DNA from: a bacterium
GTDB taxonomy: Bacteria > Patescibacteriota > Saccharimonadia > Saccharimonadales > UBA4665
NCBI GenBank assembly: GCA_021851735.1
Contig: JAJZCD010000003.1
Span: 1-47,256 of the forward strand
Reading direction: 5' to 3'
DNA length: 47,256 bases
Within the stretch, counting starts at the first letter, position 1. Every line of letters begins with the position of its first letter. The notes under the pieces were generated by a model. It was given only the letters and a program-made list of their open reading frames with translations, was not told the DNA's origin and made no database searches. This document shows, piece after piece, positions 4,425 to 44,229 of the stretch. The translations under genes were made by a program, and so were the position numbers.

Positions 4425-5603
4425 CTATGAGCGGGCGCTGAGTGTGGCGTCCGCTGCCTTTTTGGCCGGAGACGTTATGAGCATACAGCCGAGCGCGACC
4501 ACGGCGCTAACTACAAATATAGTCGTGAAGGCTTGCTGCTCAGACCAGAAAGATAGCGCGGCATAGACGAAGCCCCATAGTGTTACGTACGCTAAATCAC
4601 AGGCTATTTCCATCGACATGATGTAGTGTATGCCTTTTGTCTTCGTGTGTGCATAGTAGGTGCTCGTCCAGGCATTGCCCTGATACGCTAAGACCGTCGA
4701 CCAGGCGATACCTATACCGGTCAAATAGCCGAGTGAAGTGCTCAGTGTTCTGCCGGCGTGTACTATCGCTGAGCCGATTGAGCCTTCGCGCAGCACAAGC
4801 TTCGTCCCGCGCGAATCGGTTCGTTTGCCAGCGATGAGTAGTACTACGGCGGCGACCAATGTACCGATTGCAGTTACGGCGCCAATTTTCGCGGTGCTAT
4901 GGAGAACTACGGCCAGGTAAACTGGCCACACCATAGCCCCGGCTACCGTGTGAAAGTTGAAGGCGAAATTTGCCGCCACGTCACGCCATGGCGCATCGCG
5001 CAGGCTGTAGTGAACCCGTTGGACGGTCTGGTGCCCACCGGCTAGCTTGTCAACCGATCGCAGCCACATCACGCTCGATAGTACTATCCCGAAGGCGAGA
5101 ACCAACAGGCCAGCCTTGCCAATTACGGCGATTACCGTTGCACCGATTGCTGGCGCTATAGCGGTTGCGATTAAGCTGATGGTACTAATACGTGCCAGGT
5201 CGGTGCCGAGGCGTTCGGTTCGTGTGGCTCGTGACATATGCAGGTGCTGTGCGCTAAACTGAAACGCGTTTGTGAAGGCTAGCCATACCGGTAGCGTCCA
5301 AATAACCCAGCGGAGCGACTGGTGTACGGCTAGGGCAAGTCCCAGGAGAAACAGACAATTGGCAACTCGGGCGTAGATCAACCCGATCCTGCTGCCGGAG
5401 CGGTTAATGATCTGTACTACGGGGAGGTTAATGATGAGCTTTACAGCGGCGTAGACCAGGTAGAATAAAGCTACTTGCCGAACACTGAGCCCAAGGCCAA
5501 TGAGAAAGAGTGGCACGAACACTGCGACAAGCGCCGTGCCGAACTGGTTTTGGCTGTTAGCTAGCGTTATACCCCATAGGTCACGATGGATGAACTGTCG
5601 CAT
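4425..5603 (-). CDS. MFS transporter
   Basis: Major facilitator superfamily permease of about 392 residues with roughly 12 hydrophobic segments; the substrate cannot be told from sequence. The frame is open to a TTG at 5624, but the ATG at 5601-5603 is preferred because AGGG lies 5 nt upstream of it and the TTG has no ribosome binding site. It follows the ABC exporter gene by about 30 nt on the same strand, so the two are probably co-transcribed and may form one efflux unit. Confidence 0.85.
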   Translation of the reverse strand: MRQFIHRDLWGITLANSQNQFGTALVAVFVPLFLIGLGLSVRQVALFYLVYAAVKLIINLPVVQIINRSGSRIGLIYARVANCLFLLGLALAVHQSLRWVIWTLPVWLAFTNAFQFSAQHLHMSRATRTERLGTDLARISTISLIATAIAPAIGATVIAVIGKAGLLVLAFGIVLSSVMWLRSVDKLAGGHQTVQRVHYSLRDAPWRDVAANFAFNFHTVAGAMVWPVYLAVVLHSTAKIGAVTAIGTLVAAVVLLIAGKRTDSRGTKLVLREGSIGSAIVHAGRTLSTSLGYLTGIGIAWSTVLAYQGNAWTSTYYAHTKTKGIHYIMSMEIACDLAYVTLWGFVYAALSFWSEQQAFTTIFVVSAVVALGCMLITSPAKKAADATLSARS

Positions 5604-5635
5604 AGTAGCCCTAGTATATCCCAATTAGACGCAAT

Positions 5636-7420
5636 TTAGTCTTCGATGAACCCGCCGCTCTGATGCGCCCATAGCTTGGCGTAGGTACCGTGCTTGCGCG
5701 CAATCAGCTCTTTATGGGTACCTTCTTCTACGATTCGGCCGTCATTAAGCACGATGATGCGATCCATCTTTTGGATGGTACTCAGACGATGGGCAATGAC
5801 GATGGCCGTGCGGCCTTCCATCAGTTTCCAGAGAGCTTCCTGGATGAGGATTTCACTCTCACTATCCAAGGCGCTCGTAGCTTCATCGAGCGCCAAAATC
5901 GGTGCGTTTTTGAGCATGGCCCGGGCGATGGCGATGCGTTGTCGTTGTCCGCCGCTTAACTTAATGCCGCGTTCACCAACGAGCGTGTCATAGCCGTCGG
6001 GCAAGGTGGTAATGAAATCATGCGCACTAGCCATTTTTGCCACCGCCTCTATGGCATCCTGGGGAGCCGATCGATCACCGTAGGCAATGTTTTCACGAAT
6101 ACTGCGGTGAAATAGCATTGGCTCTTGAGGCACATAAGCAATTGACCGGCGCAGGTCATCTTGGCTAATCGCGGCAATATTTTGACCGTCAATAGTTATG
6201 GCGCCGTCTTGTATGTCCGAGAACCGCAAGAGCAAGCGGGTAAGCGTGGTTTTGCCTGAGCCACTGTGGCCTACCAGACCGACTTTTTCGCCGGGTTTTA
6301 TGTGGAGATTGAGCCGGTCAAACAGTGGTTCATTGGAGCCGTTATGTTGGAACACCACGTTGGTAAAGTTAATTGAGCCACGATGTATTTGCGATGGTTC
6401 CGGGCTTGCGGGATCTTGTATATCCGGTTGTGACGCAAGAATCCTGACCATGTCTGCAGCGTCACCAAGCGACCGGTTGTAGTTACGGAGCGCATTGTTA
6501 CCAAAGTTAAACAACTGCTCGCCGACATTCGCGGTGTACGAGAATATCAGGAACACGGTCGCTACGTTTGCGTTAAATACCATAACGCCGATTACTGCCA
6601 TAACAAGTGCAAGCGCGGTAATGGTAGATAGCATACTACCGAAATAGAGTTGCTGTTTTTGGTGGGCGCTGCCGAACTGTAAAAGGCTGCGCTGGGTATT
6701 TCGGGTTGCTGCGCCGAACATACGCTCTTCATAGCCTTGACCGGCAAAGCTTTTTATAGCCAGGGCGTTGGTGACGGCATCTGCTAGGACGCCCGTCTGT
6801 TTACTCTCGATCATGGCATGGCTAGCACCAAGATGCCGGACGCGGCGGGTCACAAATACGGAGCTAATCGAGTAGATCAGCGCGAACGCAAATAACGCGA
6901 CTGCAAAAAACGGTGCGACTTTAGCTAGTACTACTATTGAAAACAGTACGCCAAGAATCATGGGCACTACGCTAAACGTCGTTGTATCGGCAAACCGTAT
7001 GTAGCTGCCCATGAGCTTATTTGTCTGTGACACGAGTGAGCCGGTAAAGTTGTCGGCGTGGAACCTGGCACTCTGGCTGAGCAGGTGTGAGAATACTTCC
7101 CGCGCAATCGAACGTTCAACCTTGCTCTCGATTCGCCATTGCAATGCATCGATAATGCGCCATGAAAAGTTGCCAAAAAATACCATGGCTGTGTATATAA
7201 CAAGTTCCGGCCCGAAGCTTGCCCAAATGTTGTGCGCTATAAACGCATGACGGGATAAACGATTCAAAACGTTCGCCAAAATAATCGGCGGTATGATCTG
7301 ATTGGCCAGTACATTGATGGGCAGCGTTACGGCTATACCTGTAAGATAGCGCCGTTCATGCCAAACCTTGTGTCCAAAGTAGCGGACAACCTGTTTTCCT
7401 GATGTTCTTGTTTGTTGCAT
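5636..7420 (-). CDS. ABC exporter, fused membrane and ATPase domains (MsbA/MDR type)
   Basis: Half-transporter of 594 residues that probably works as a homodimer to export a lipid or drug-like substrate. The N-terminal 320 residues are a six-helix transmembrane domain. The ATPase domain has Walker A GHSGSGKTT, the Q-loop AYVPQEP, signature LSGGQRQRIAIARAML, Walker B ILALDEATSALD and the H-loop IAHRLST. The frame extends to 7486, but the ATG at 7418-7420 is chosen because AGGAGG lies 9 nt upstream. It is first in an operon with the downstream MFS gene. Confidence 0.92.
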   Translation of the reverse strand: MQQTRTSGKQVVRYFGHKVWHERRYLTGIAVTLPINVLANQIIPPIILANVLNRLSRHAFIAHNIWASFGPELVIYTAMVFFGNFSWRIIDALQWRIESKVERSIAREVFSHLLSQSARFHADNFTGSLVSQTNKLMGSYIRFADTTTFSVVPMILGVLFSIVVLAKVAPFFAVALFAFALIYSISSVFVTRRVRHLGASHAMIESKQTGVLADAVTNALAIKSFAGQGYEERMFGAATRNTQRSLLQFGSAHQKQQLYFGSMLSTITALALVMAVIGVMVFNANVATVFLIFSYTANVGEQLFNFGNNALRNYNRSLGDAADMVRILASQPDIQDPASPEPSQIHRGSINFTNVVFQHNGSNEPLFDRLNLHIKPGEKVGLVGHSGSGKTTLTRLLLRFSDIQDGAITIDGQNIAAISQDDLRRSIAYVPQEPMLFHRSIRENIAYGDRSAPQDAIEAVAKMASAHDFITTLPDGYDTLVGERGIKLSGGQRQRIAIARAMLKNAPILALDEATSALDSESEILIQEALWKLMEGRTAIVIAHRLSTIQKMDRIIVLNDGRIVEEGTHKELIARKHGTYAKLWAHQSGGFIED

Positions 7421-7777: not shown

Positions 7778-8686
7778 ATGCAAAAAATACTGCTGTATTA
7801 CAAATTCACCCCCATTAAGGATCCGGACATGACGCGGCTATGGCAGCGTGCGCTATGTGAAAAGCTGAACCTTAAGGGTCGTATACTCATTGCTGAACAC
7901 GGCATAAACGGAACCGTGGGCGGCGAGTTAGAAGACCTTAAAACCTATGTTAAAGAAACGAAACAATGGGCCGGCTTTAAGGACACGGTATTTAAGTGGA
8001 GCGACGGCTCACGCGATCATTTTCCAAAGCTACAAGTAAAAGTACGGCCTGAAATTGTATCATTCGGTGCCGGTAGCGAACTGCAAGTTACCGACAACGG
8101 GGTGGTTGATGGCGGCCGTCATCTAAAACCGGCGGAAGTGCATGAATTATATGAACAGTATGGTGATGACGTGGTGTTTTTTGATGGCCGTAATGCCTAT
8201 GAGGCGGCTGTAGGCCGTTTTAAGAACGCAGTGGTCCCGAATACCCGGACGAGCAAGGATTTTATCAGGGAACTGGAAAGCGGCCGCTATGACCACTTGA
8301 AGGACAAGAAAGTTATTACCTATTGCACTGGCGGTATCCGGTGTGAAATTTTAACGCCGCTCATGAAGCACCGTGGGTTTAAGGACGTCTACCAGATGGA
8401 TGGTGGTATTGTTAAATACGGCGAACAGTACGGGGACGATGGTCTATGGGAAGGCAATCTATATGTATTTGATGATCGTATGGGCATAACGTTCAGTGAC
8501 CATGCTAAGGATATTGGCACATGTATTCATTGTGGCGGCGCTACCAGTACGTACGTAAACTGCGCCTTAGCGTCGTGTAACGAGTTGGTACTGATCTGTG
8601 AATCGTGCAAGCAAGATCCGGCCAAACTGTACCATACCAACAATTGCCGAACGACCGTGAAACCCGGCGTTGCAGCGCATGCCTAA
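7778..8686 (+). CDS. trhO: tRNA uridine(34) hydroxylase TrhO (UPF0176, rhodanese domain)
   Basis: Family known to form 5-hydroxyuridine at tRNA wobble position 34 in an oxygen-dependent reaction. The 302 residues show the N-terminal family domain ([24 protein letters not shown]), then a rhodanese domain (about 125-220) with the active-site loop YCTGGIRCE carrying the conserved Cys. A C-terminal Cys-rich segment (CIHCGG...CALASC...CESCKQDP) is probably a zinc site. It heads an operon with def and uvrC (8-nt and 4-nt overlaps). Confidence 0.93.
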
Positions 8687-9224
8687 CGTATTGGACTTGA
8701 AGCGCTTTGGCAATCCTGTATTGCGTCAAACCGCTCGTACACTGTCTATTGATGAGATTTGTAGTGTAGCGACACAGAAACTTATTGCTGATATCCGACA
8801 TACGAACGAGCAAAAGCAATACGGTGTCGGGCTGGCCGCCCCACAGATTGGTGTAAGCGTCGCTCTGAGTGTTATCGGTATAAAACCAACTCCTACGCGG
8901 CCTAATGTACAGCCATTTGAGCGTGTCATTATTAACCCGCGCTATACGGGTGTTGGCCGTCGGGTGCCTTTGTGGGAAGGCTGCCAGAGTTGTGGCACGG
9001 GAAACGATACGCTGTACGCGCAGGTACCACGGTATCGGAAAATTGAGGCGTCTTGGTATGACGAGAAAGGCGGGCTGAACCGTGAAATACTAGAGGATTT
9101 TGTGGCGCATGTATTCCAGCACGAAACTGACCATCTAAACGGTATACTATTTGTCGACAAGGTCCGCGATACCAAGAGCTATATGCTCGTCAGTGAATAC
9201 CGGGAGCGTATACTGAAAGCGTGA
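8679..9224 (+). CDS. def: Peptide deformylase
   Basis: Metal-dependent removal of the formyl group from new proteins. All three motifs are visible: [10 protein letters not shown] (motif I), EGCQSC (motif II, normally EGCLS; its Cys is a metal ligand) and QHETDHLNG (motif III, HExDH with two His ligands and catalytic Glu). The Leu-to-Gln change in motif II is unusual, but all catalytic residues are kept. The frame is open from a TTG at 8670. The ATG at 8679 is preferred and overlaps the trhO end by 8 nt. The stop overlaps the uvrC GTG. Confidence 0.93.
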
Positions 9225-38337: not shown

Positions 38338-38598
38338 ATGACATACAAGACCATACTCACTAGTAAAGGGACGACAACGATTCCAATAGAGATCCGTAAG
38401 CAGCTAGGTATTAAGCCAGGCATGCAGATTACTTTTACAAGAACAAATTCAGGCGAGTACATTATCAAGCGTTCACAAACCATCGAAGAAATCCGTACTA
38501 TGAATAAACAGGCGCTCGCTCGGGCCGCTACAACCAATAAAGAATATAAAAGCGGCGATGGTTTTACGCTCGCAAGCCAAGAGAAATTCGGCCAGTAG
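38338..38598 (+). CDS. vapB: AbrB/MazE-fold (SpoVT domain) antitoxin
   Basis: 86 residues. The N-terminal swapped-hairpin DNA-binding domain shows LTSKGTTTIPIEIRKQLGIKPGMQITF; the C-terminal half (RTMNKQALARAATTNKEYK) should wrap the toxin. It is 2 nt upstream of a PIN-domain toxin gene and has a palindromic operator at its -35 box, so self-repression is expected. Leaderless start. Confidence 0.9.
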   Translation: MTYKTILTSKGTTTIPIEIRKQLGIKPGMQITFTRTNSGEYIIKRSQTIEEIRTMNKQALARAATTNKEYKSGDGFTLASQEKFGQ

Positions 38599-38600
38599 CC

Positions 38601-38987
38601 ATGCTCGATACAAATGTGTTACTCGACTGGTTACTTGACCGAGATGCAAAGCGTACGAAGCTTATTGATAAGCTATTTTCTTCTGTAGGTGGATTGCAAA
38701 TCCCAGATGTCGTAATTGTTGAGCTTACCTTCGCGTTGGAAAAGTTTTATGAGTTGCCGCGTGATGTAGTAACTGAGAACATTAGCAAAGTTGTCGACGA
38801 ACCAATCTTTAATTGTAATCGGGCCCTCTTTCGGAGAGCGCTCATAGACTACAGCAAATATCCTGCGCTTTCCTTTGTCGATTGTTACTTAATACACTAT
38901 GCTGAACTGCAACATGCTACACCAGTGTGGACATTTGATAAAAAGTTAGTCAATCAAAGTAGAGGTAGGGCCAAACCTTTAAGTTGA
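38601..38987 (+). CDS. vapC: PIN-domain toxin (VapC-like ribonuclease)
   Basis: 128 residues. The four acidic positions of the PIN site are present: LDTNVLLD (Asp 3), VIVELTFALEKF (Glu), ALSFVDCYLIHYAE (Asp) and VWTFDKKL (Asp). Expected target is tRNA or rRNA, as for other VapC proteins. It starts 2 nt after the antitoxin stop. Degenerate element C begins 5 nt after its stop. Confidence 0.9.
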   Translation: MLDTNVLLDWLLDRDAKRTKLIDKLFSSVGGLQIPDVVIVELTFALEKFYELPRDVVTENISKVVDEPIFNCNRALFRRALIDYSKYPALSFVDCYLIHYAELQHATPVWTFDKKLVNQSRGRAKPLS

Positions 38988-39206: not shown

Positions 39207-39452
39207 ATGAAAAGCATGCAGTATACGATCAGAGCAATCCCTCCCAAGTTAGATACAGCTTTAAGGCGTCGTGCTCAAAAAACTGGCAAAAGTCTTAACG
39301 AGGTGTTGATTGAAACACTTGCGAAAGGAGCCGGTGTTTCACCTGATGCAAATTTCAACGACATGGATTGGTTTATCGGTAATAAAACACTAGACTCGTC
39401 CTTCGACCGGTCCTTGGATTGGCTTGACGCTGTGCCGAAGGATATACAATGA
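39207..39452 (+). CDS. Ribbon-helix-helix antitoxin (FitA/VapB type)
   Basis: 81 residues. QYTIRAIPPKLDTALRRRAQKTGKSLNEVLIETL is a ribbon-helix-helix DNA-binding domain; the acidic, aromatic C-terminal part (FNDMDWFIG, FDRSLDWL) should occupy the toxin. The gene overlaps the PIN toxin by 4 nt (ATGA). The palindrome over its -10 box suggests autoregulation. Leaderless start. Confidence 0.88.
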   Translation: MKSMQYTIRAIPPKLDTALRRRAQKTGKSLNEVLIETLAKGAGVSPDANFNDMDWFIGNKTLDSSFDRSLDWLDAVPKDIQ

Positions 39453-39844
39453 TTCCAAGGCTAGCGTTGGACACTAACGCGTATCGTGCACTTGATGACG
39501 GCGATCCAAAGTTAAGCGATCTCGTACGAACGATACCAGAGGTTGGTTTACCAGTTACTGTTTTGGGTGAAATTTACTACGGAATCTTTCTTGGTAATAG
39601 GCAAGAAGAGAATTTGTCAAACCTAAGCCGATTCCTCGCTTTACCCCGTGTGGAGTTGCTGCACATAGACGAAATAACCGCTAAGTTGTTCGGAGAAATA
39701 GTCACGGAGTTGCGACGGAAGGGTAGGCCTATTCAGCAAGATGATATGTGGATTGCGGCGCTTTGTAAGCAATACGGCTACACACTTGCTACTGCCGACA
39801 AAGGTTTCGACGCCATTACGGGCTTAGAATTGGTCAGATTCTAA
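39449..39844 (+). CDS. vapC: PIN-domain toxin (VapC/FitB type)
   Basis: 131 residues with a complete PIN site: LALDTNAYRAL (Asp), TVLGEIYYGI (Glu), QQDDMWIAAL (Asp) and ATADKGFDAI (Asp). A ribonuclease toxin silenced by the antitoxin just upstream, to which it is translationally coupled by ATGA. It is distinct in sequence from the module 1 toxin, so the two were gained separately. It ends 38 nt before the tRNA-Arg 3' end. Confidence 0.92.
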   Translation: MIPRLALDTNAYRALDDGDPKLSDLVRTIPEVGLPVTVLGEIYYGIFLGNRQEENLSNLSRFLALPRVELLHIDEITAKLFGEIVTELRRKGRPIQQDDMWIAALCKQYGYTLATADKGFDAITGLELVRF

Positions 39845-40103: not shown

Positions 40104-41144
40104 CTACAATAGGATATCCTCGGTTTTGGCTAGAAACGTCTGTAGCCTTGTATCGAGGTTAGTACACCCCAATATTGCCACGCCAAGCAATACTAACAGC
40201 GGTCCGCTGTTCGGGTCGGTGGCCAGCCCGGTATAGTAACTGCCTACGTTCTGGCCTATGACCCAGAAAATCAAAGACAACACAATGCCTACCCATATAG
40301 CAGCAGCTCTAACACTCCCCTTTACCATCGCACCAATGCATACGAAGAGCATAAGGGCGACTAATAGCGGCACAAACCAACCACCGGGAGACCGCCTTAT
40401 TGGTGTCGATTGGCGCATATGCATCATGGTTGTCGACATGCTCTGACTGGATGTAGTGCCTTGGGTACTAGTGCCAGTTCCGCCAACAAAGTTGGCGGCT
40501 GACTTGTCGACGTGAGTTACCCAAGACGGTGCGTCATTGGCGTTCGCATGTACCATCGCTGCAATGCCCGATGACGTATCCATACCTGGAGTCGTTAATT
40601 GCCAGTAAATGCCGCCAAACCATACTAGGATCCACACAAAAAGCAACCAGAACGCAGCCGGTTGGTCAGAAGTGCCTGACGTACTGGCGCTATCGTTGCG
40701 ATTTGTTTTAACCGGTAGTGACGCTAGAGCTAGAATAACGTAGAGTACGGCGGCTCCGGGTGCGCCCATCAATAACGAGGCGTGGTTACTGAATATGCCT
40801 CCGTACCCTTCGCCAAGCGACCAGACGAATAGCCCCCACAGTATCGAAGCTAGTAAGCCCCACTTGGCGGTCCGTCTCCGGAGTATTAAGCTCCCAATGC
40901 CGATCTGGGAGATGGCGATCAAACTGTCGAATATTGCGGGGTGTGTGAGAAATATATGTGCTGCGAAGTGCATAGGGGTACTAACCCATATAGGTTGTTC
41001 CTGGATCATCGGGTTAATAACCTGCGATATAAAACTGCCTGTAAACATCCGATGTTGTAACTGTAGCATCCCATCGAGAAGCCAGAGGCATCCGAGTGCA
41101 ATCTGTATGTGACGGCGGGTGATAGTATGCGTGAAGATTTTCAT
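40104..41144 (-). CDS. Polytopic membrane protein downstream of heliorhodopsin
   Basis: 346 residues with about eight to nine helices. The start IALGCLWLLDGMLQLQHRMFTG and the later WSLGEGYGGIFSNHASLLMGAPGAA recall a family of membrane proteins I know from Actinobacteria; function unknown. A Ser/Thr/Met-rich loop (about 215-260, with SQSMSTTMMHMRQS) lies between helices. The frame is open to 41306, but the ATG at 41142-41144 sits just before helix 1. TACAAT is about 21 nt upstream. It follows the heliorhodopsin gene by 128 nt on the same strand. Confidence 0.75.
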   Translation of the reverse strand: MKIFTHTITRRHIQIALGCLWLLDGMLQLQHRMFTGSFISQVINPMIQEQPIWVSTPMHFAAHIFLTHPAIFDSLIAISQIGIGSLILRRRTAKWGLLASILWGLFVWSLGEGYGGIFSNHASLLMGAPGAAVLYVILALASLPVKTNRNDSASTSGTSDQPAAFWLLFVWILVWFGGIYWQLTTPGMDTSSGIAAMVHANANDAPSWVTHVDKSAANFVGGTGTSTQGTTSSQSMSTTMMHMRQSTPIRRSPGGWFVPLLVALMLFVCIGAMVKGSVRAAAIWVGIVLSLIFWVIGQNVGSYYTGLATDPNSGPLLVLLGVAILGCTNLDTRLQTFLAKTEDILL

Positions 41145-41272
41145 GTTTGTCTTTCGAAGATTCCAATTGTAGTTGTCTTGACAGGTTGTAAAATGTGCGC
41201 CAAAGGCGTGCTTTCCCACTATACCATGGCACGTCCGCGCAATCTGTAGAACGCTCCAGGCTGTGCTGATGT

Positions 41273-42091
41273 TTAGGGACGGAGCGTACCGGCAAACACT
41301 TGCCAAGCAAGCAGACTTTTTGCAACGAGGCTTAGGAGGATATAGACCCGTTCGCCGTAGAGATAGTCTTTCCAGGGGCCAATTTTTTTATACTGCAGTA
41401 ACATATTAACCGCAAAGCAGCTGAAAAATACAAACAATGATACGAATATCCAGTACACGAACGTCGGTGCTCTGCTCCCATACGTAGCGCCGAGCCATAG
41501 GTAAAGTGCGACGACGCCCCAGGGAAGTGCGCCCGCTAGACATCCTATGTAGTAGCTGGTCCAATTAGTGGCCGGAGTGGTTTGGTTGTGAAGCTCCATC
41601 ATGAGTCCCATCAGGTTCATGATGGCAGTTAGCCCAAATAGCATAAGCAGGCTGGCCAGGTCATATACGCCGACCAGCATGGCGATGGCAACCATCATCA
41701 CGCTCGCCGATAATGAGTATTCCACCCAGCGAGCTTTGTTGATACCGCGACGTAGATTTATGTTGTATCGTTTGTTGTACACGCTGACGATTACGAGGTG
41801 AAAGAAAGCAGATAAAAAGAAAAATAACGCAATAAGCCAGGGTAAATCCACTCTGAAAATGGTGGTGGTCGCAGGTTTGAGCATTCGAGCGGAGCGGCTG
41901 AATTGCAAGTAACTACCAGTGATAGCAATGGTCAGGTGTTGGCTAAGCCAGAGTACTATAATACCTTGAATCAAGTGCAGTATACCGGCGATTAGGCTTA
42001 AGCGCCTCAACTTTTGTAGTTTTTGGGAACGGGCCGCTTCTAGCAGGCGTCTTGTTTGCGAATTGGCGGTGAGGAGATGTGTGGTGTCCAC
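41273..42091 (-). CDS. Heliorhodopsin
   Basis: Seven-helix retinal protein, 272 residues. Helix 7 has LSLVAKSLLAWQVFAGTL with the retinal-binding Lys at 258. Helix 3 has RWVEYSLSAS with the Glu counter-ion (124), and His residues in ILHLIQG (39) and SAFFHL (98) match the conserved His pair of the family. FVYWIFVSLFVFFSCFAVNM and QYKKIGPWKDYLYGERVYI are also typical. Heliorhodopsins are thought to be light sensors with an inverted topology and occur mainly in monoderms. The start is GTG 42091, with a TAG in frame just upstream. No retinal-synthesis gene is in the window. Confidence 0.94.
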   Translation of the reverse strand: MDTTHLLTANSQTRRLLEAARSQKLQKLRRLSLIAGILHLIQGIIVLWLSQHLTIAITGSYLQFSRSARMLKPATTTIFRVDLPWLIALFFFLSAFFHLVIVSVYNKRYNINLRRGINKARWVEYSLSASVMMVAIAMLVGVYDLASLLMLFGLTAIMNLMGLMMELHNQTTPATNWTSYYIGCLAGALPWGVVALYLWLGATYGSRAPTFVYWIFVSLFVFFSCFAVNMLLQYKKIGPWKDYLYGERVYILLSLVAKSLLAWQVFAGTLRP

Positions 42092-42266
42092 CTTTTCGCC
42101 GACCTACTCATTAACGTTTGTTATAGTAGCAGCCACGCTGAGCTCATTGCTAAGTACGTTGTCTTGCCAAGTCGTTGGAGCCATACATTCTCCTTAATGC
42201 GTACGCGGCTTACAGTATGCGTCTTCGTTGGTGTATACACAGTAGCCCTGCTAACTGTCTGTGCGT

Positions 42267-43220
42267 TTATTCGATCGCGCGAGTATGCAATCCAAAACCG
42301 AGCCGGTGCTTCCGATAGATGTCCATGGTAGGCACAGCCTGCCAATGCGGGGTAGCATTATGTATTAGTAAGTGGTCCGTTGCAAACTTCGCAGTTGCGA
42401 TATGCACGAGTAAGCGCGAGGCCTGTCCAGCCGGCGTATCCGTCACGCGATAGTCTAACAGTTTAAATGCATCCGTATAGTGAAACTGACTAGCGAGTTT
42501 CTTTTTCACCGCCTCATACAGTGTTTGTCCCGTTTGCACTGGCAATGTGTAACTTGGTGGTGCTGGGGATCGGTCGAGCAATAGCACGTCAATGGAGTCT
42601 GACTGCTCTGTGTCGCTGCTTGTAAAGAGTGGTGTATAGGTGTATCGGGCTCGAGCAGGATGCGTCGTGTCCGCTAGCATTCTTGCGGTGCTGGTGGTCG
42701 TCGGCATGTTGAACGTCATAGGGTGTAGTAGTTCGGGCGAAACGTTGCTCGGCAATAACACGAACCAGTAGGCGTCTTCATCATAGCTGGCTATGTTAAC
42801 GAACATTTTGTTGTCATAGCCGGCAATGCGCAGGACCTCATGCAGGAGATAATCTGGCTCTTCCTCGCGGTACACGACAGATGCGTGCGTATCACCACGC
42901 CCTAATATGGCGGTCCGATACGCAGACTTTTCAATGTTGTACGGTCTCAGAGTCCGTAGTGTGAAGCGTTCCTCGACAACGCCTACGTCGAGCGGTAAAC
43001 AGCTTGCCGCGCCTGCTAGGACGTCTTCGGCTACGTACCGTTTGTCCAATAAAAAACCGTAGTGTTGCGGCTCAAGCAGATCATAAAAAATATCAGCATC
43101 ATATTTTCTATTCTCCAGAAAATAGCTACTATCCCACTTGATCCGCCAATCAGCGGCTATGCACATGCGCTTTAAATCTGGTTCGTGTAGTTCGCTATAC
43201 ACCGTTGCATATCCTAGCAA
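42267..43220 (-). CDS. Unknown protein upstream of heliorhodopsin
   Basis: 317 residues, no recognised domain. It is soluble and mixed alpha/beta with no signal peptide or helix. Features include SYFLENRKYDADIFYDLLEPQHYGFLLDKRY, DYLLHEVLRIAGYDNKMFVN, a Thr/Ser-rich middle (about 175-205) and a compact C-terminal part (TGQTLYEAVKKKLASQ, HIATAKFATDHLLIH). The start is uncertain: TTG 43220 with TATACC exactly 7 nt upstream, or ATG 43166. It lies 175 nt before the heliorhodopsin on the same strand; a shared role is only a guess. Confidence 0.7.
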   Translation of the reverse strand: MLGYATVYSELHEPDLKRMCIAADWRIKWDSSYFLENRKYDADIFYDLLEPQHYGFLLDKRYVAEDVLAGAASCLPLDVGVVEERFTLRTLRPYNIEKSAYRTAILGRGDTHASVVYREEEPDYLLHEVLRIAGYDNKMFVNIASYDEDAYWFVLLPSNVSPELLHPMTFNMPTTTSTARMLADTTHPARARYTYTPLFTSSDTEQSDSIDVLLLDRSPAPPSYTLPVQTGQTLYEAVKKKLASQFHYTDAFKLLDYRVTDTPAGQASRLLVHIATAKFATDHLLIHNATPHWQAVPTMDIYRKHRLGFGLHTRAIE

Positions 43221-43312: not shown

Positions 43313-43455
43313 GAATATTCGTTACTTGTGGTGTCTGAATCATGTGGCTGCTCGGGCGGGGTAGAGTGTAAATTTCAACTGTGTATTTCGTGGTTGACTA
43401 CCATACTATGTAGTATTAGCACGTACATCTCTTGTGGGGAAAATGGAGGAGTAGC

Positions 43456-44229
43456 ATGAAAAAGATTGTTTTTTCGTTGCTTGTAGCGGTGACATTACTT
43501 CTTAGTAGTACCGCTGCCTTTGCGGGCGGTGTGGCTGACTGGTACGAGCGGGGCGGTCCGACGTATAAGTCGTCACATAACTACAGTGCTAAGCATACCG
43601 TGCCGCCGCCTCGTGCAGCGAATCAATCGTCACGTAACGTTATCATGCAAAATGTGACGACAAAGCCTTCAGATATGACCGTTCCACAGGGAACAACGGT
43701 TACCTGGGTTAACCAAAGTGCCCGCATACAAAATATCGCGAGCAACACATCGAACGGTCCGATGAGCGGTTACATACAGCCCGGCCAGTCATATAGTCGT
43801 GCTTTTAATACGCCGGGATCCTATCCGTATCACTATATGAGATACCCGAATAGACAGGGTACAATTACCGTAACCAAGACGCCACCTGTACCGCCAAATC
43901 CGGGTCCTGTGCCACAGCCGCCAGCCAATAATTCGTCATCGTCTACTGCAACGTCATCTGCCACAGCGACTGTTAATACCTACAATACATACACGGTACC
44001 TCCCAAAACTACGACACAACCTGCATCGTCGGTGGAACCAACCACGGTGCCGGTACAATATACGCCAACCGCTGCCGCTGCACCGGCCAGCGCCACGCTT
44101 CCTGCCGCTGCGCCATCGGCCTTGCCAAACACGGGTGCAGTTGGAGCCGGGGCGGCGTTTATCCTGGCGAGTTCTGTAGGGGCAATCGCATACTATCTAT
44201 ACGCCCGTCACAAAGCTTCTAAGGTATAG
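43456..44229 (+). CDS. Surface-anchored cupredoxin-fold protein lacking copper ligands
   Basis: 257 residues. A signal peptide (1-23, ending TAAFAGG) leads to a plastocyanin-like domain (about 60-140: PSDMTVPQGTTVTWVN, FNTPGSYPYH, QGTITV), a long Pro/Thr/Ser linker, then LPNTG (223-227), a helix and a basic tail: a sortase-type anchor. The usual four copper ligands are all changed: His to Gln 92, Cys to Tyr 127, His to Tyr 130, Met to Arg 133. So it probably binds no copper and serves as a surface adhesin or binding module. The ATG has GGAGGAG 6 nt upstream. No sortase gene is in the window. Confidence 0.87.
   Translation: MKKIVFSLLVAVTLLLSSTAAFAGGVADWYERGGPTYKSSHNYSAKHTVPPPRAANQSSRNVIMQNVTTKPSDMTVPQGTTVTWVNQSARIQNIASNTSNGPMSGYIQPGQSYSRAFNTPGSYPYHYMRYPNRQGTITVTKTPPVPPNPGPVPQPPANNSSSSTATSSATATVNTYNTYTVPPKTTTQPASSVEPTTVPVQYTPTAAAAPASATLPAAAPSALPNTGAVGAGAAFILASSVGAIAYYLYARHKASKV

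Follow-up and report, generated by a model that had tools for sequence, protein, structure and literature searches.

Introduction

A sensory rather than a pumping role has been inferred for heliorhodopsins in the literature (PMC8612252). Among the described members, TaHeR of a Thermoplasmatales archaeon (PDB 6is6) is 54.5% identical to the protein reported here over 244 residues, and the two are alike in the SxxxK motif, the counterion glutamate and a full alignment of the seven transmembrane helices. The 48C12 type (6su3; 9ljj in our tree) belongs to the same family, our protein being about 42% identical to 9ljj. Lysine-bearing heliorhodopsins of the same family and class as ours have also been described from Saccharimonadia (Chiriac 2022, PMC9166423; Bulzu 2021, PMC8612252).

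Here we describe a heliorhodopsin gene in a window of 47,256 nucleotides, the whole stretch of DNA that was analysed. Unlike archaeal TaHeR, its product is bacterial, is encoded in a reduced Saccharibacterial genome, falls into a separate clade and is known from sequence alone. It lies on a branch other than that of the 48C12 type, although this type is also found in the window's bacterial family. The initial annotation had implied that such a gene is rare in Patescibacteria, which does not agree with the 80 occurrences published from Saccharimonadia (PMC9166423): the window gene is an ordinary heliorhodopsin in a host group where heliorhodopsins have already been reported.

The heliorhodopsin gene and its host

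The reading frame of the gene is intact. The gene and the codons of its diagnostic residues are located as follows:

41273..42091, minus strand: heliorhodopsin gene of lineage A1, GTG start, 272 aa
41318..41320, minus strand: Lys258 codon (AAA), retinal Schiff-base lysine according to the alignment
41330-41332, minus strand: Ser254 codon, SxxxK motif
41720..41722, minus strand: Glu124 codon (GAA), counterion of the Schiff base, corresponding to E108 of TaHeR in the alignment
41798..41800, minus strand: His98 codon (CAC)
41975..41977, minus strand: His39 codon (CAC)

In a profile search, residues 28-270 matched PF18761 (Heliorhodopsin) at 7.2e-95 and 317.4 bits against a cut-off of 26.7, and the NCBIfam model HeR (NF038020) was matched with 321.1 bits against a cut-off of 100. 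TaHeR was the best solved relative (9.5e-81), and the window protein aligns in full to solved heliorhodopsins. The counterion Glu124 in TM3, the conserved His39 and His98 and the Schiff-base lysine Lys258 in TM7 are all present; these four hallmarks had been named correctly in the initial annotation, and Ser254 completes the SxxxK motif. Hydropathy resolves six segments in the window protein, TM3 and TM4 being merged, and seven in its 71%-identical relative L031, while the N-terminal segment carries seven K/R versus two D/E, as expected for an N terminus inside the cell. Judged by these matches and residues, the product of 41273-42091 is beyond doubt a genuine and complete heliorhodopsin (type-3 rhodopsin), and its competence to bind retinal is supported. 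That the gene might be a decaying or retinal-free remnant is suggested by six relatives at another locus that lack the retinal lysine (see below), but in the window copy the frame is intact, the branch is short and neither the lysine nor the counterion nor either histidine is missing, which makes this reading barely credible.

In a tree of 101 heliorhodopsins, the window protein falls into a clade of 21 (support 100/93) whose members bear the lysine and are nearly all from Saccharibacteria. Its sister (L058 1356-2120, plus strand; support 100/97) stems from a metagenome-assembled genome labelled as Actinomycetes, HSP2.bin23. The genes around it (for TetR, an ABC exporter, cupin-like and alpha/beta-hydrolase-like proteins) do not look Saccharibacterial, which may be due to mis-binning of the contig or to gene transfer between the lineages of symbiont and host. 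Two further heliorhodopsin lineages occur in the window's bacterial family, namely 48C12-like copies (L033-L035, L037-L039, L041, L047) and a lineage bound to a housekeeping locus.

The host is a Saccharibacterium with a small genome (1.13 Mb in 53 contigs, 97.7% complete and thus missing about 2%) that groups with Saccharibacteria MAGs, so that the earlier guess of a Patescibacterium was right. The window gene is the sole heliorhodopsin in this genome.

Retinal supply

No RPE65-type dioxygenase was found in the whole genome by a profile search whose controls worked. Searches for Blh/BCD gave no match in the window genome and 16 other heliorhodopsin-bearing genomes, the control genomes being silent as well. 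The earlier statement that no retinal-synthesis gene is seen thus extends genome-wide for RPE65, whereas for Blh the negative result comes with a silent control. A search of the whole genome for type-1 rhodopsins, run without a control, gave no match either. Since no retinal-making dioxygenase was found, retinal is probably scavenged rather than made by the host cell, and the supply from outside considered in the initial annotation is the most likely one. Scavenging is also the best reading because Saccharibacterial type-1 rhodopsins without blh take up added retinal quickly: they bind it within 30 s, at a rate comparable to that of heliorhodopsin (PMC9296517).

Adjacent genes

As the initial annotation described, the heliorhodopsin gene has a same-strand neighbour on either side:

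42267..43220, minus strand: upstream neighbour, orphan soluble protein of 317 aa, no Pfam/NCBIfam match
42092..42266, minus strand: gap between the 317-aa reading frame and the heliorhodopsin gene, 175 bp, wide for an operon junction
41145..41272, minus strand: gap between the heliorhodopsin gene and the downstream gene, 128 bp
40104..41144, minus strand: downstream neighbour, multi-helix membrane protein of 346 aa from an unnamed family, ATG start, no Pfam/NCBIfam match

Both neighbours had been proposed as candidate partners, and their position next to the heliorhodopsin gene on the same strand would fit a dedicated partner in a light-controlled membrane module. Co-transcription has been defined in Bulzu 2021 by a distance of <10 bp (PMC8612252); a signalling operon of that type, with a same-strand partner within 10 bp, is not present here, the gaps being 128 and 175 bp. 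The 317-aa protein is an orphan: a second copy was absent from 93 same-family genomes, and one weak partial match was obtained among 393 genomes of the class. The family of the 346-aa protein is present in 38 of the 93 same-family genomes, but without any link to heliorhodopsin (10/24 genomes with versus 28/69 without it; Fisher p=1.0), and in none of nine other genomes carrying both do a homologue and a heliorhodopsin share a contig. Across the 102 distinct heliorhodopsin loci compared, neither of these two same-strand genes turns up again. Linkage with either gene is therefore not conserved in relatives, the very finding that had been named in advance as speaking against the proposal. We consider the partner reading of the two neighbours unsupported because the gaps are wide, the distribution is unlinked and the neighbours do not recur across loci; synteny and distribution speak strongly against both candidates, and they are best seen as chance neighbours.

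In relatives, homologues of the 346-aa protein adjoin a VKOR-like gene (L142 814-1422, minus strand) and subunits of COX2-type oxidases (L139 1-366 and L154 3-647, both minus strand), which suggests that this family has its own context in redox or respiratory functions. A light-controlled redox function would fit the idea that heliorhodopsins act in oxidative stress, but against the gaps and the distribution described above a dedicated partnership of either neighbour remains quite improbable. The predicted structure of the 346-aa protein (pLDDT 80) had no significant PDB match; a weak match to NACHO/TMEM35A (E 1.9) was not used as evidence, and neither were the promoters and terminators scanned for near the heliorhodopsin gene, which were consensus matches only. 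A comparison with two same-genus genomes returned short scattered matches, so that no empty site could be defined.

Elsewhere in the window, 43432-44229 (plus strand) encodes a protein with a signal peptide, a cupredoxin/amicyanin-like domain and, at its C terminus, an LPNTG-like anchor, and two toxin-antitoxin-like pairs with PIN-type toxins lie at 38338-38987 and 39207-39844 (both plus strand). Homologues of the former pair are found just upstream of the heliorhodopsin gene in L043.

The genes next to the nearest relatives encode TetR (L058, L060), NmrA-like proteins (L030, L031), DUF1295 and DUF2177 proteins (L031, L075), a PAP2 phosphatase (L063), a ClpB-type ATPase (L065) and a photolyase (L069). 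Six loci of Saccharibacteria and Chloroflexota (L031 7220-7999, minus strand; L041 7037-7852, minus strand; L075 9147-9941, plus strand; L120; L130; L132) have a DUF1295 gene in the first to third position behind the heliorhodopsin, and in L075 the DUF2177 gene lies between the two. Chiriac 2022 and Bulzu 2021 infer function from the neighbourhood, whereas the neighbourhood of the window gene was found to be unconserved. As neighbours vary from genome to genome, a position next to a heliorhodopsin gene is by itself an unreliable sign of partnership.

Possible partners and proposed working

The partner could be encoded elsewhere in the genome; candidates are known clients, among them glutamine synthetase and class II photolyases, and also two-component kinases. 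TfHeR binds and stimulates a class II photolyase (PMC9769723), glutamine synthetase is a published heliorhodopsin partner as cited in PMC10308929, and histidine kinases have been found near Patescibacterial heliorhodopsins (PMC8612252) and also lie beside the heliorhodopsin of L032. In two relatives a photolyase gene stands divergently beside the heliorhodopsin gene (L037 of genome G085, 3-755 on the minus strand with 822-1589 on the plus strand; L069, 6600-8018 on the minus strand with 7989-8810 on the plus strand). On the other hand, homologues of photolyase, DUF1295 and DUF2177 proteins are absent from the 47-kb window, PF03441 detected no photolyase in the genome, and across the 93 genomes PF03441 photolyases showed no association with heliorhodopsin (p=0.5). 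The photolyase of L069 matches PF00875 only, and PF03441 was silent on that of G085. Absence of a photolyase by PF03441 is unsafe because this profile missed the one beside the G085 heliorhodopsin, and the same holds for the co-occurrence test, by which an association was not supported. Overall, a known client appears unlikely, though less so than a partnership with the adjacent genes.

A role in moving ions in the light is conceivable since proton-transporting heliorhodopsins of giant viruses exist (Hososhima 2022, as cited in PMC10308929). But the window protein belongs to a Saccharibacterial clade, its closest characterised relative here is TaHeR, and no ion pumping by a heliorhodopsin had been shown as of PMC8612252; we regard this role as highly improbable.

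We favour, with a probability of roughly 70%, a retinal-binding type-3 rhodopsin that uses scavenged retinal and acts as a sensor on an unlinked partner, the adjacent genes being there by chance. The uptake of retinal, the sensory output and the unlinked partner are what we infer for the window protein. All-trans retinal would be scavenged from co-living retinal producers and would be bound to Lys258 as a Schiff base, whose counterion by homology is Glu124. Light would isomerise the retinal to give a long-lived photoproduct, which could alter the cytoplasmic face of the inverted seven-helix bundle (N terminus inside). The changed face may in turn modulate the activity of a protein whose gene lies in another part of the genome.

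A second lineage at a housekeeping locus

In 13 of the 93 family genomes, a heliorhodopsin gene lies between msrA/LysRS and a HAD phosphatase gene (L040, L044-L046, L048-L057). The order is GreA-LysRS-(MsrA)-[heliorhodopsin]-HAD-(TrmA)-PD-(D/E)XK-SerRS-HPF-SecA, the names being read from the sequences rather than from a profile-library run for each gene. The PD-(D/E)XK gene belongs to the core, being present in 85/93 genomes, and much the same gene order was seen in 40 examined genomes that have no heliorhodopsin there (L219-L258), the window's own genome (L219) among them. At these heliorhodopsin-free loci, a search for highly diverged heliorhodopsins between msrA and HAD with two profiles at full sensitivity gave nothing below E=0.6.

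MsrA was at first suggestive as a functional partner. The gene is present at 7/13 loci with heliorhodopsin versus 22/40 without; being equally frequent where heliorhodopsin is missing, its adjacency is background at an old housekeeping locus, and MsrA was ruled out.

Heliorhodopsins without the retinal lysine

The more surprising result, and the part worth following, concerns not the window gene but this second lineage. Six of the 13 housekeeping-locus heliorhodopsins carry another residue in place of the retinal lysine (A and E twice each, Q and W once each):

L051 (genome G007), 8034-9170, minus strand: A at the lysine position, full-length
L052 (G024), 8084-8896, minus strand: E at the lysine position, full-length
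L053 (G075), 8012-8827, minus strand: A at the lysine position, full-length
L054 (G065), 8049-8957, minus strand: E at the lysine position, full-length
L055 (G006, with L057), 5559-5927, minus strand: Q at the lysine position, C-terminal piece at a contig end
L056 (G011), 7986-8807, minus strand: W at the lysine position, full-length

None of the six has an alternative lysine in that TM7 helix, and the counterion glutamate is missing in four of the five full-length copies. Still, the full-length members score 100-206 bits with PF18761, far above the cut-off, and their seven-helix frames and structural residues persist. We took as reference the 48 positions at which at least 95% of the lysine-bearing heliorhodopsins agree and counted a position as kept if at least four of the five lysine-less copies retain it. 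By this measure 18 positions are kept, mostly Trp, Gly, Pro, Tyr and Leu together with Arg121, Glu166 and Glu247, and 30 are lost, including His39, His98, Glu124, Ser254 and Lys258. For the copy of L053, which sits in a single-contig genome, structure prediction points to a retained heliorhodopsin fold: the model (pLDDT 83) comprises seven long helices, with a beta hairpin following TM1, and it matches 6is6 (3e-12; TM-scores 0.79/0.86), lysine-bearing relatives in the underlying alignment helping the fold. By profile, tree and fold (the latter from one model), L051-L056 can be classified as heliorhodopsins without the TM7 lysine.

The five full-length copies make up one side of a single branch (99/98 in a tree of 38 rows), so one loss of the lysine is enough to explain them, while three very long branches leave the details within the group unsure. 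Identity among the members is 25-38%, and reading frames that stay open over such distances argue against decay. Genome G011 holds both a lysine-bearing 48C12-like heliorhodopsin (L041) and a lysine-less one (L056).

We found no lysine-less heliorhodopsin in the open-access literature, in which lysine-less type-1 rhodopsins do occur (PMC10308929). Three surveys screened on the TM7 lysine and would have filtered out such proteins: Bulzu 2021 retained SxxxK sequences alone (PMC8612252), Bulzu 2022 retained only sequences with the TM7 lysine, and Chiriac 2022 examined its candidates for the SxxxK motif (PMC9166423). The nearest parallel described in PMC10308929 is provided by Rh-noK (Becker 2016) and the freshwater FArhodopsins, which likewise show an opsin fold minus the retinal lysine. 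These are type-1 rhodopsins whereas the six proteins here are heliorhodopsins, and the parallel does not include the window gene.

Implications

Taken together, we find it fairly likely that the housekeeping-locus lineage gave rise a single time to a lysine-less clade that shed most of the retinal site, retained the seven-helix heliorhodopsin fold and is kept as a retinal-independent membrane protein, be it a receptor, a scaffold or a regulator. If true, heliorhodopsins would have a light-independent function worth keeping; the window gene, which bears the lysine, is unaffected by this. The lysine-less relatives, if confirmed, would separate the light-independent from the retinal part of heliorhodopsin function, and the 18 of 48 positions that survive without retinal would point to the role of the rest of the protein.
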